In this document: positions 30,321-34,447 of the stretch, piece by piece
How positions within the stretch are numbered: position 1 is the stretch's first letter
Layout of the letters: each line of letters starts with the position of its first letter
DNA from: an uncultured bacterium
GTDB lineage: Bacteria; Spirochaetota; Leptospiria; Turneriellales; Turneriellaceae
DNA length: 35,305 bases
Assembly (NCBI GenBank): GCA_938038265.1
Contig: CALHRC010000086.1
Span: forward strand, 1-35,305
Direction of reading: 5' to 3'
The notes under the pieces: model-generated
Database searches by the model: none
Told to the model about the DNA's origin: nothing
The model's input: only the letters and a program-made list of their open reading frames with translations
Position numbers and translations under genes: made by a program

Positions 30321-30338
30321 GATGTGGAATTCCACATC
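30321..30338. repeat. P2 palindrome, perfect
   Basis: GATGTGGAATTCCACATC, an exact 18-base palindrome. The GC-rich structured unit begins 14 bases later, the same spacing as at 34279. Confidence 0.9.
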
Positions 30339-30352
30339 AATGGCAGTAAAAT

Positions 30353-30490
30353 GGGGGCCTCCCGGGCGCCCCCCCTCGCTACGTCCTGGCTTGTCTCTAA
30401 CATGACAACCTCAGCAAGCATGGCCTTGTAAGACCACCGCTTCTTACTATCGCGCGAAGCTTGACCGCTGCTGCCAGTCCGCTATCCCCC
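30353..30490. other. Structured GC-rich intergenic element, copy A
   Basis: This unit aligns with 34311-34447 through CCCTCGCT, GGCTTGTC, GACAACC, GCATGGCC and CTAYCCCCC and has the same overall length. Possible stems are: I, GGGGGC (30353-30358) with GCCCCC (30368-30373); II, CTGGC (30386-30390) with GCCAG (30473-30477); III, TTGTC (30391-30395) with GACAA (30404-30408); IV, CAAGC (30415-30419) with GCTTG (30459-30463), extended by CAG/CTG; V, TGGCCTT (30421-30427) with AAGACCA (30430-30436), one mismatch. The strand that folds is unknown. Confidence 0.55.
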
Positions 30491-30632
30491 CAGAAACATC
30501 CTTCACAAAATTTTTTATCAATTTTAAAATTTTTTTATTCTAAAATGCAAATTTTGACCCCACGACAGGGTATATAACAGTAAGGGGCAATTTCTCTCAT
30601 GTCCCCTAAGTATATTGAATACTGGAGGATCT

Positions 30633-31187
30633 ATGAAATACAAAGGTGATAGTAATCCATATAATGTAGATGCCGTATGGGAAGTTCGGCTACGGCCTGA
30701 AATTATTGAAGATATTAGAAAGGCCGCAAGTCATTACAAGACAACCATGTCGTGGATCGTGCGTTGGTGTACGTTTCGGCTTTTTCTTAGAAAGAAAATG
30801 AGTTTGGATAAACTGCATAACATAGCGCAGGAACTGCGGGAAAGAAATCAACCCAAGCCCATGTCTGCCGGAGAATTACACCGACTGCGGGTTTGCCTTT
30901 ATGGAGGAGATGAGAGAATTTTTCTTGAATTGAAATATCGCTTTGGGTTGACAACAACTATGTTGGTCAGAATAGCTTTGCAACTTTATCTCAAATACTT
31001 ATTAGACAAAGCTGAATCCTGGAGAAATGTTTTCTTCTACGGTTTAAAATTTTTTTCTCAAACAAAAGCGCTATACTCTCGCCGTGTTATAGTGCCTCAG
31101 GTGGACTTTCATATTCACAAGTTTTTTCATTATTCAGACTATTGGGATATCCCGCCAGGAAAAATGCCTAATTTTATAAGGGTTTAG
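30633..31187 (+). CDS. Hypothetical protein with two ribbon-helix-helix-like segments
   Basis: A 184-residue protein that I cannot assign. Two segments look like ribbon-helix-helix DNA-binding units: residues 14-52 (strand VWEVRLRPE, then two helices separated by KTTMS) and residues 83-121 (strand HRLRVCLYG, then helices separated by GLTTT). A protein with both would form an RHH pair within one chain. Leptospira DUF1564 proteins have a comparable build, but I cannot verify homology. The last 55 residues are aromatic and basic. I chose the ATG at 30633 because GGAGG lies five bases before it; a TTG at 30615 is in frame but lacks such a site. A perfect P2 palindrome lies on each side (30321 and 31207). 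Confidence 0.7.
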   Translation: MKYKGDSNPYNVDAVWEVRLRPEIIEDIRKAASHYKTTMSWIVRWCTFRLFLRKKMSLDKLHNIAQELRERNQPKPMSAGELHRLRVCLYGGDERIFLELKYRFGLTTTMLVRIALQLYLKYLLDKAESWRNVFFYGLKFFSQTKALYSRRVIVPQVDFHIHKFFHYSDYWDIPPGKMPNFIRV

Positions 31188-31202
31188 TGGCTTTCAGAAA
31201 GA

Positions 31203-31228
31203 TTTTGATGTGGAATTCCACATCAAAA
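31203..31228. repeat. P2 palindrome extended to 26 perfect bases
   Basis: The 18-base P2 (31207-31224) is flanked by TTTT and AAAA, making a 26-base exact palindrome between two convergent genes. The T-run precedes and the A-run follows the stem on both strands, the reverse of an intrinsic terminator. Confidence 0.9.
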
Positions 31229-31259
31229 AAAGGATGGCTAATGATCGAGGTAGATTTTA

Positions 31260-34175
31260 TTAATAGCCAGGGCGAGTAAGTACAGTCTCACAACGCCAAG
31301 AATTCTTCCCCTGCTGTAAATCATTGACCCGCATAACCCCCTTACAGCTATTGGAGCAATTATAAGTGGCGTTTTCAGAGGCAAGACTATCGGCGGCAAC
31401 ACAAATCCCCTCTAATTGCAAATCACGGTCATTGAGACCAGCAACTGGCAATTGCGATAGCGGCCAAAAATTTTGTAAGTTATAATAGACTTCCCGCAGA
31501 GCGCCTTCGGCAAAACCACCTGTCCAGCTGCCATCGCGGTTGGTGTAATAAAGTACATCCTGCACCCCATAGTTTGGTAACGGGCAGCCTGCACTATTCT
31601 CTGTATTGGTGCCGCAGTAGGTAAGTATAATAACCGCATCTGTTGTGGTCAGTGTGGGAGCCATAGAGTTAATATGGTACGGCGAACCATTGCGGGTTGC
31701 TGGCGTACAGCTTGGACTGCTAAATCCCGTATCACAGCCATTGGCATTATAGGTATCTTCGTTTTTTAATAAATTTGCTTCGCTGCGCCGGGTTGAGACT
31801 ACCAAAATATCATTGGCAGCGACAGACAGCTCACCAAATTCATGCACTAAGTCCATTCCCTGGTAGTTGTAGTAAAAAACACGCAGCCCCCGTACTGTGC
31901 CAGCTGAAGTAGCACGGATTTCAATCCAATTGGTGTCATTGTTGACACGATTTAATAACACCTGGGCTCGACTACTGTTATAACCATTAAAGTATAGCGC
32001 ATCGGTATTGGCAACTACTGACCAAAAATCTTGGCAGCTGGAGGTGGGGGCAGCAGAGAACAAAGTATCGCTGCCATTAAAATTACCGCTGGTAGCCGTG
32101 AGACGCAATACCCCCAAAGAGGTTTGTGTGAGGTTAAACGCAGTAGGGACACTACCGCTGCCAGAAATTTTATTTAATAAAATGTCGAATGATGGATTCA
32201 TACAGTTAGTCATGTTGCTATTAAAATTTAAGATAAGTTCTGTGGGGGATGTCAAATAAGCCGAGAGCAACCGGGGCTGGGCTGCTGAAGAATAACCAGT
32301 ACCCGCCGAGGCATAGGTTTCACCAGCAGCCGCGTTACTACAGGCGTCAAAAGTTTGGCTCCAGTGAGAGCAAGTATATTTAGTAAAAGCAGTAAACCAA
32401 GCAGCTTTTAAATAACCAGGTAGCATGTTGATGTTGGTATGGCTGCGCCGCTCCATACTGCGGGAGATTTTGGCAATACTATCCATGGCGCCTGCCGGCG
32501 CGTTAAAACCATCCCCTGCTTCATCAACTAAATTCATGGCTTTGTCAAAGAGACGCACCTTAAATTGGGCATTACTTAACCTAAAATTTTTGACCCCTGA
32601 AATTCTAAAGTGCTCTAAACCAGTTACCCGGGTATAGAGGGCGGCGCCATCTTCATTATAGACAATGTCCTCATCGGGGGTAGGAGGGGCAAAAGCCGAA
32701 TTACCATCCGCATAAAAAACCCGGTACATGCCGGGGCAGATTACGTTATCTACCGTTTCAGAAAAATTTTGGTAGCCGGGATAACCTGAGCAAGTTTGTT
32801 TGTTTTCATAATACCAGTTGTGTCTGTCGGGTATGGGATAGATATTGCGCCACTCATTGGGCCCCCACTGTATAGCCCAGTGAGAGAGATCCACCGGTTG
32901 CGAACCTTTATTATAAATTTCAATGAAATCATCGCTTTGTTTTAGGTTGCTTGTGGTGCTTGAACCAGCCCAGTTAATTTCGCTAATTACAATGTCACCA
33001 GGGTTGGCAATATGACCGCGGCGACCCACGCGTAGTGCTAAATCATTCGATATCCCCCAGGCTTGTTTAAATTGTTCATAAATTGTGTTAGCAATTTTGG
33101 GATTATGGATTACAATCATATTTTCGTCGTTATTATTGATGGCGTTATTGGACCAATTAAACGAGCCGGTCGCCATTTTAGCATTGGGTGTGCCGGCATC
33201 AATGATAAGGGTTTTGCAGTGCATTTTACCGCCATGGGCGGGGTTGCCGCGAATCTTGGTGTTTTCGTTGCCATCCCACCGGGGGAAGGGGCCGGTGGGG
33301 TGGAGGGAGCCATCGTTATTAAACGCACTCGTATAGATACGAGGCGCTTCTTCAGAGACGCCGACAACAAAAGTATTGTCATGGATGCCATAGACGGGAA
33401 TATTCCTTTGGCGGGCTGCGTGAATCATGGCGCTGGCTAACTCATCGTGAGTGTGCGCAAAGATCATATAGTGCACGGAATGCTGCGCACTGTTTACGAG
33501 CTCAATTAAGCGATCCATGGCATCTTGGCCATCATAGGGTGAAAAATAAACCTCTATTTGGTGGTTATTGACTGTAAAAGTGCGGTTGATTGCTCGGGGA
33601 CGTTTTTTACTGGCAAAAAGCCCGCTGTACATCTGCATAAATTCATTGCGGTAATGGTTGGCAATTTCTGGGCTTTCAATAATATACCAGTTATTGTTAT
33701 TGCGATCCATATCGGTATCGGAAAGGTTGCCGGTACCGGTAAAGACCAGCCGCCCATCCACAACGGCAAATTTATTGTGTTGGATGCCGCTGGCATTGCC
33801 CAGTGACATGTCGATATTGTATTGTTGCATTTGCTGGTAGCCGTGGGTATAAAACTCATCGATATCCCCCACTACCTTAACTTCAATATTGCGCTCCCGT
33901 GCGCGCAGTACAGCATCGATGATGGATTGCTTATTGAAATTATAAACTGCCAATAAAACAGATTGTTCGGCTTCATCGATGATTTTTACCAATTCTAAAT
34001 CAATGAATTTGTTAACCATGGTTTCGGGGTCGCGCCCGGGATCATTGAAATACACTGAAAAGCGAGCTGTGCCATCCCCGAACCCGGGATCTTTAATACT
34101 TGTGACATTGGTACAAGCCGCTGTTAGCAGTAGTACTGTGGTCAATAGGGGGCATGTAAGTCTCTGGAGACTCAT
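31260..34175 (-). CDS. Large lipoprotein with two phospholipase D motifs and lamin-tail-like domains
   Basis: A 971-residue lipoprotein. The signal peptide ends in the lipobox LTAAC, with C21 as the lipidated residue. The N-terminal half is a phospholipase D-superfamily domain with both HxKxxxxD motifs: H133/K135/D140 (HNKFAVVD, followed by GTGNLSD) and H319/K321/D326 (HCKTLIID, followed by GSFNWSNNA). A lamin-tail-like domain follows from about residue 394 (GDIVISEINWAG, DDFIEIYNKGSQPVDLSHWAIQ). A middle Ig-like part has LTSPTELILNFNSNM. A second lamin-tail-like stretch reads NDTNWIEIRATSAGTVRGLRVFYYN. The last 150 residues carry several cysteines. It may be a surface-exposed nuclease or phospholipase; whether it faces the periplasm or the outside is unknown. 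It is monocistronic and ends 72 bases from the RHH-like gene. Confidence 0.85.
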   Translation of the reverse strand: MSLQRLTCPLLTTVLLLTAACTNVTSIKDPGFGDGTARFSVYFNDPGRDPETMVNKFIDLELVKIIDEAEQSVLLAVYNFNKQSIIDAVLRARERNIEVKVVGDIDEFYTHGYQQMQQYNIDMSLGNASGIQHNKFAVVDGRLVFTGTGNLSDTDMDRNNNNWYIIESPEIANHYRNEFMQMYSGLFASKKRPRAINRTFTVNNHQIEVYFSPYDGQDAMDRLIELVNSAQHSVHYMIFAHTHDELASAMIHAARQRNIPVYGIHDNTFVVGVSEEAPRIYTSAFNNDGSLHPTGPFPRWDGNENTKIRGNPAHGGKMHCKTLIIDAGTPNAKMATGSFNWSNNAINNNDENMIVIHNPKIANTIYEQFKQAWGISNDLALRVGRRGHIANPGDIVISEINWAGSSTTSNLKQSDDFIEIYNKGSQPVDLSHWAIQWGPNEWRNIYPIPDRHNWYYENKQTCSGYPGYQNFSETVDNVICPGMYRVFYADGNSAFAPPTPDEDIVYNEDGAALYTRVTGLEHFRISGVKNFRLSNAQFKVRLFDKAMNLVDEAGDGFNAPAGAMDSIAKISRSMERRSHTNINMLPGYLKAAWFTAFTKYTCSHWSQTFDACSNAAAGETYASAGTGYSSAAQPRLLSAYLTSPTELILNFNSNMTNCMNPSFDILLNKISGSGSVPTAFNLTQTSLGVLRLTATSGNFNGSDTLFSAAPTSSCQDFWSVVANTDALYFNGYNSSRAQVLLNRVNNDTNWIEIRATSAGTVRGLRVFYYNYQGMDLVHEFGELSVAANDILVVSTRRSEANLLKNEDTYNANGCDTGFSSPSCTPATRNGSPYHINSMAPTLTTTDAVIILTYCGTNTENSAGCPLPNYGVQDVLYYTNRDGSWTGGFAEGALREVYYNLQNFWPLSQLPVAGLNDRDLQLEGICVAADSLASENATYNCSNSCKGVMRVNDLQQGKNSWRCETVLTRPGY

Positions 34176-34256
34176 CTTGAGGCTTTATTATAGTACGAAT
34201 TGCCCCAGTCAAGAGAAAGTTGTTTTATTTTGTCTGCCAGCAGCCAAGGAATCCTT

Positions 34257-34296
34257 AGTTCAGGAATTCCTGAACTATGATGTGGAATTCCACATC
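34257..34296. repeat. P1-P2 palindrome pair, both perfect
   Basis: AGTTCAGGAATTCCTGAACT (34257-34276) and GATGTGGAATTCCACATC (34279-34296) are both exact palindromes and are separated by only two bases. This is the cleanest example of the pair in the window. Confidence 0.92.
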
Positions 34297-34310
34297 AAAA
34301 AGTAAAAAGG

Positions 34311-34447
34311 AGGGGGCTTAAGCCCCCTCGCTGCGGCCGGGCTTGTCCCTACGGGGACAACCGGCTCCGGCATGGCCGCAGGCGGCCACCGGTTTTCGCT
34401 ATTCGCTCAAACCTTGCCGGAGCCTGCCCGGCCTTTAGCTACCCCCG
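34311..34447. other. Structured GC-rich intergenic element, copy B
   Basis: Possible stems are: I, AGGGGGCTTAAGCCCCCT, an exact palindrome (34311-34328); II, GGCCGGGC (34335-34342) with GCCCGGCC (34426-34433); III, TTGTCCC (34343-34349) with GGGACAA (34354-34360), closing a TACG tetraloop; IV, GGCTCCGGCA (34363-34372) with TGCCGGAGCC (34415-34424); V, TGGCCGC (34373-34379) with GCGGCCA (34382-34388). All are perfect. Stem II encloses III and IV, and IV encloses V. Copy A at 30353 can form the same arrangement with different bases. Confidence 0.6.

Follow-up and report, generated by a model that had tools for sequence, protein, structure and literature searches.

A probable mobile palindromic repeat with a conserved fold in Spirochaetota, plasmids and microviruses

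Two related units in a 35,305-nucleotide stretch of DNA from an uncultured member of the Turneriellaceae (contig CALHRC010000086.1; hereafter the window) belong to a family that we consider likely to be a non-autonomous palindromic mobile repeat, with a folded single strand as its conserved unit. It is strongly supported that this strand is conserved as a fold, in RNA or in single-stranded DNA. The first-pass annotation of the window had described two units, which follow the perfect GATGTGGAATTCCACATC palindromes at 30321 and 34279 with a gap of about 14 nt, and had suggested that both form the same stems under selection for a folded molecule of no known class. The units lie where it placed them, and the stem pairs that it listed are real, corresponding to helices P1, P2 and P4 of the family (Table 1). 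Compensating changes in two sets of copies (41 and 19) strengthen its case that a folded molecule, RNA or single-stranded DNA, is conserved; the interpretation now has to be carried further, to a high-copy mobile repeat across phyla rather than one regulatory RNA.

Table 1. Positions of the two folded repeats, their parts and the adjoining palindromes in the window
Feature	Position	Strand	Remarks
Folded repeat, copy 1 (type B)	34309..34447	minus	Model R1, 131.6 bits (seed member); fold z -7.6 (RNA parameters) and -6.9 (DNA parameters)
Copy 1, termini	5' end 34447; 3' hairpin 34329-34310	minus	5' end CGGGGGTAGC
Folded repeat, copy 2, diverged and decayed	30350..30490	minus	Model R1, 50.4 bits, E 6.3e-10; outside the seed
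Copy 1, helix P1	34335..34433	minus	34433-34426 with 34342-34335; closes the multi-branch fold
Copy 1, helix P2	34363..34424	minus	34424-34416 with 34371-34363
Copy 1, hairpin P3	34391..34413	minus	Tandem GA/GA internal loop (34408-34407, 34397-34396)
Copy 1, hairpin P4	34372..34389	minus	Helix 4 of the covariation test
Copy 1, hairpin P5	34343..34360	minus	Helix 5 of the covariation test
Copy 1, terminal G/C hairpin	34310..34329	minus	GAGGGGGC..GCCCCCTC, then a T-rich stretch
P2 palindrome GATGTGGAATTCCACATC	34279..34296		Adjoins copy 1
P2 palindrome	30321..30338		Adjoins copy 2
TTCAGGAATTCCTGAA palindrome	34259..34274		Another nested repeat, often beside copies

The family was modelled from five seed copies (covariance model R1; three of the seeds were shortened by one to three bases, for alignment guidance only). 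A search of the window with this model returned both units on the minus strand and, on the opposite strand, a single weak hit at the terminal hairpin. Copy 1 folds better than its shuffles on both strands and with RNA and DNA parameters alike (z about -7.6 and -6.9, respectively). Copy 2 by itself folds at the level of its shuffles (z -0.64 and -0.50 for the two strands), so its structure rests on homology and covariation instead of folding energy. It is a decayed member of the family, identified through its model score of 50 bits.

Read on the minus strand, the element consists of an outer helix (P1), helix P2, hairpin P3 with its GA/GA loop, hairpins P4 and P5, and then the G/C hairpin and a run of Ts. 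Its core can be written as GGGG-U(A/G)GC-GNA-(hairpin of any sequence)-GNA-GC(G/C)A-GGGG..CCCC, with the 5' GGGG(G) and the 3' GGGG..CCCC hairpin almost invariant. At the GNA/GNA foot, 76-77 of 82 copies have the G and the A on both strands, with a variable base between them, and the retention of this non-complementary loop argues for recognition of the fold rather than of a mere palindrome. P3 repeats the foot motif (GUUU-GA-GC .. GC-GA-AAAC), and its GA/GA is retained in 17 of the 22 copies with a recognisable P3. The conserved G.A oppositions fit the minus strand, because the plus strand would turn them into T/C mismatches. Copies range from about 54 to 162 nt and from two to six hairpins; the differences in length are due to the variable inner arm and the additional palindromes within it, which we infer to be nested insertions. 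The foot also bears a tag that differs between groups: G-GTAG-C in type B and in Treponema-like copies, GGAG in type A, and GTGG in genomes G013 and G032. The Treponema-like form has an additional 5' hairpin, GGGGCGTTGCGGGG..CCCCGCAG.

Compensating change between the paired positions exceeds chance by far. In the alignment of 41 copies, pairing holds in 93% of cells and both sides change in 32 of the 41 pairs, including five of five in helix 1 and nine of nine in helix 2; double-change cells number 228, against 71±6 after shuffling and 24-64 with the partners slid, in an alignment that was fitted to the model and is hence biased towards it. A second test, on a MAFFT alignment of 19 copies from seven genomes with a hand-written structure, gave 47 double-change cells against 13.6±2.7 shuffled and 4-16 slid. 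Could such paired changes arise through correction of quasi-palindromes or conversion between the arms, with no selection on the fold? Long near-perfect palindromes are indeed prone to template switching. Arm conversion would, however, erase the mismatched GNA/GNA loops, which persist across phyla, and conserved letters are also found outside the stems; we regard this explanation as improbable. As to the class of the fold, Rfam returned nothing credible at gathering or relaxed thresholds, in agreement with the earlier reading. A literature search with exact sequence strings, covering mostly open-access texts, found no relevant paper, and an earlier description is possible.

The expectation of further copies was amply confirmed in the window's own draft genome (G000, 83% complete), where a BLAST search with the 34.3 kb unit gave 64 matches and model R1 gave 76 at E<=1, of which 65 had E below 0.01. 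The window's FloA shares 87% identity with that of a Leptospiraceae MAG, which places the window in class Leptospirae. Extended to the order (model R2), the count was 48 copies in G000, 24 in G013, 12 and 11 in G014 and G016, two each in the same-family genomes G002 and G006, and one in G003, with no copy in the remaining eleven genomes; searching the class contributed two further copies, in G032. A core-only model (R3) matched 54 of 296 Spirochaetota genomes, with dispersed copies reaching at least 11 per genome among the matches listed. Relatives extend to alphaproteobacterial and acidobacterial plasmids: BLAST with the Treponema-like form hit plasmids of Sphingomonadales, Caulobacter, Magnetospira, Agrobacterium, Granulicella and Treponema, and a second query hit many more alphaproteobacterial ones. 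They are also present in eight microviruses (bajarodmic viruses 342, 796, 799, 930, 947, 959 and 985, and MG945216; loci include L153 and L154), on the packaged-sense strand and ahead of the DNA pilot gene. No copy was found in E. coli genomes. In IMG/VR a narrow pattern matched nothing and a wider one matched nine stretches; L214-L223 are IMG/VR contigs with pattern matches to the element core. So broad a distribution implies horizontal spread.

The element is a mobile repeat, as filled and empty orthologous sites, dispersal and in-frame insertion attest. In genome G246 (locus L188) it lies in frame inside a 685-residue open stretch of carB, and the carB orthologues of G303 and G345, 94-99% identical, are without it; divergent copies occupy the same interdomain linker in G320, G317 and G283. 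A target-site duplication was not seen in carB, where the junction is too unclean to read. This linker is a recurrent landing site in several species with Treponema-like genomes (L188, L235, L244, L247). Another in-frame copy, its frame read by hand, is found in a transporter-like gene (L151). In bajarodmic virus 342 the annotated ORF of the small protein preceding the DNA pilot gene ends in DSLRGGSGEPEVRSEGETSPS and a stop, which is the translated element forming the C-terminus; virus 988 is 80% identical to this protein over residues 1-99, and the tail is unmatched. By mechanical ORF calling, 7 of 40 copies from other Spirochaetota lie inside ORFs, four of these in antisense.

Plasmid copies adjoin genes of ArdC or ParB type, and in several cases their other flank is occupied by AbiEii, SIR2, restriction-type or ATPase genes, a pattern seen by inspection, without statistics, in a handful of plasmids. 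On alphaproteobacterial plasmids (L224, L228, L229, L230, L231 and L233) the element often stands between the ArdC/ParB-type backbone and genes with AbiEii, SIR2, TIR, restriction endonuclease or ubiquitin-like system annotations. The copies beside ArdC or ParB genes on conjugative plasmids, the strand and position of the microvirus copies and the folding with DNA parameters would all suit a folded single-stranded DNA signal, such as a primase-type initiation site or a single-stranded DNA promoter, spread by single-stranded DNA phages and conjugation. Yet most chromosomal copies are distant from transfer or replication genes, and in the phages the end of a gene is translated from the element, which suggests that it may be a mere insertion; we find this the hardest of the alternatives to credit.

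In chromosomes no single rule of context holds for all groups. Type B copies of G000 point at a downstream gene in 20 of 24 cases, mostly from 115-230 bp away (22 of 26 when different ORF cut-offs were applied), with promoter-like boxes between element and gene in several cases; in G013, 12 of 13 copies are also directed at a downstream gene. This orientation could reflect a regulatory role, and it counts against a mobile repeat. A cis-leader or riboswitch was considered and rejected, as promoter-like boxes often fall between the type B element of G000 and the gene and the orientation is inconsistent elsewhere. The copies of G013 sit in a larger unit ending GTAAGCG..CGCTTAC, those of type A often end against a convergent stop codon, and those of G014 and G016 often closely follow a stop codon, several of them starting 5-45 bp after one on the same strand.

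Some of these positions would be expected of a mobile transcription terminator or insulator, kept since its 3' hairpin and T-rich tail stop read-through with help from the upstream hairpin. The terminal hairpin of copy 1 with its T-rich stretch resembles an intrinsic terminator, and the GGGG..CCCC hairpin is at the 3' end throughout; tails are T-rich in type B of G000 (mean 4.8 T in 8) and in G014/G016 (3.9), the stop-codon neighbours of these two genomes and of type A are where a terminator would be placed, and copy 1 lies in sense orientation upstream of a PLD gene, with promoter-like boxes after it. In other Spirochaetota, however, the tails are weaker (3.6), orientation bias is absent and the copies inside ORFs, antisense ones among them, are at odds with such a role; moreover, terminator function needs neither the GNA/GNA foot nor the 5' GGGG. 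We therefore think it unlikely that termination is what keeps the element, while the terminal hairpin and the Ts following it probably also serve as a terminator in some places.

A different alternative is suggested by genus g3, both species of which (G002, G006) have a copy of type A and another of type B at matching places. This looks like vertical conservation, counts against the mobile-repeat reading, and would be in order for a family of trans-acting small RNAs with types A and B as duplicated paralogous genes. The strong fold and its covariation would fit as well, and type A copies between divergent and convergent genes would need a transcript of their own. Such genes would hardly be expected, though, as 65 dispersed copies, many of them truncated, or in frame in carB and a microvirus, and a consistent upstream promoter was not seen; there seems little chance that the family is of this kind.

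The window also contains, at 30615-31187, a 190-residue ORF that is ribbon-helix-helix-like by eye and has no Pfam match. The genome holds 16 matches to it (15 besides itself), four of which are preceded by a copy of the repeat no more than about 350 bp away, and a similar-looking 208-residue ORF adjoins copies in G013 (L072, L075). A tie between this ORF family and the element is suggestive; the four upstream copies are in both orientations.

Palindromes around and within the element are themselves repeats. The P2 palindrome (GATGTGGAATTCCACATC; as a family, GATGNGGAATTCCNCATC) occurs 65 times in the genome against 0 for a control pattern, at 30321, 31207, 34279 and 34652 of the window and at about 60 further sites; it is a separate, abundant repeat family that is frequently but not invariably beside the folded element. 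The TTCAGGAATTCCTGAA palindrome represents another. At L149 (1501-1594) the inner arm of one copy contains a nested GTCCCTGAGCCTGTCGAAGGG palindrome, which looks like yet another widespread repeat. One intergenic spot (L065, 2716-2780) carries a minimal 55-nt element in G014 and a different repeat (CATAGCCACGGGTTTAAACCCGTGGCTATG) in G016; it thus attracts unrelated repeats.

What could be the mechanism that spreads the non-autonomous mobile repeat favoured here? An enzyme acting in trans might recognise the folded strand by its foot loops and terminal hairpin, and would copy or paste the element on single-stranded DNA or RNA. The surviving copies would then be those in harmless spots, whether intergenic, behind a stop codon, ahead of a promoter or in frame in a protein linker. 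A Y1 transposase (IS200/RAYT, PF01797) was found in none of G000, G002, G003, G013, G014 and G032, which are drafts where genes may be missed; that no enzyme able to mobilise the element turned up counts against this reading, as does the want of a visible target-site duplication in carB. A GxxExxY protein (PF13366), put forward as partner from one neighbour on a Treponema plasmid, was rejected, since most carriers lack it and the element does not flank it. On a Treponema saccharophilum plasmid (L160, about 820-1330) a GxxExxY gene stands between CACACGGATTCG / CGAATCCGTG repeats in inverted orientation, an arrangement that resembles an intervening-sequence unit. More speculatively, the family may be a new class of mobile element common to several phyla, plasmids and single-stranded DNA phages, which lengthens proteins in frame and whose folded single strand, with its GNA/GNA foot and terminal hairpin, is the substrate of an enzyme acting in trans and not yet described, be it a recombinase, a reverse transcriptase or a primase; we entertain this tentatively and consider it doubtful.

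Among known systems, the element appears to work most like the Rickettsia palindromic elements, a likeness of behaviour. Those are dispersed palindromic repeats of about 100-150 bp that lie in frame in unrelated genes (PMC10969869), as does the present element in carB, at L151 and in the microvirus ORF; it differs in its far wider range (Spirochaetota, Alphaproteobacteria, Acidobacteriota and microviruses), in its multi-branch fold with the GNA/GNA foot and in having only a minority of copies in genes. REP/BIME sequences are extragenic hairpin repeats in mosaics, with GTAG-/CGTC-tagged palindromes and RAYT (PMC3733652), and share with it the mosaics of hairpins; the tag at the hairpin foot of the element is GTAG in type B and GGAG or GTGG in some other groups. 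That the REP motifs of Spirochaetota resemble those of other taxa most (PMC12306157) fits too, in a study that names no such element. Membership of REP/RAYT was nevertheless rejected, both on size, the element having two to six hairpins in 54-162 nt instead of a single one of 20-40 nt, and on the absence of the Y1 transposase from the drafts of the main carriers. MITEs (including RUP, SPRITE and Correia-type elements) are likewise small non-autonomous repeats, and the copies of G013 lie within units that end in GTAAGCG...CGCTTAC, but the ends of the element's core are not inverted repeats, carB shows no target duplication and the IS200/RAYT search of the drafts found no partner transposase. 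The Rhizobium-specific intergenic mosaic elements (RIME) are GC-rich mosaics of two palindromes in alphaproteobacterial intergenic DNA, and probably differ from the element in sequence order. Integron attC sites likewise enclose a variable-length hairpin between conserved ends, with a GTTRRRY core against GTTGNAG at the matching place, but the copies are dispersed over contigs and chromosomes and do not form cassette arrays. As for intrinsic terminators, a U-run is present in some groups only and the orientation is mixed. Given the likeness to the Rickettsia elements and REP/BIME and the mismatch with REP/RAYT and MITEs, we assign the element to the palindromic interspersed mobile repeats, as a new variant.

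A mobile repeat with conserved structure and this broad a range, absent from Rfam, is unusual. In-frame insertion of a peptide by a palindromic repeat is now shown outside Rickettsia, and on plasmids the copies adjoin genes annotated as defence-like. Now that a motif, a covariance model and naturally occurring filled and empty sites in carB and a microvirus gene are available, it becomes possible to test how palindromic repeats spread when they have no transposase, a question of long standing.
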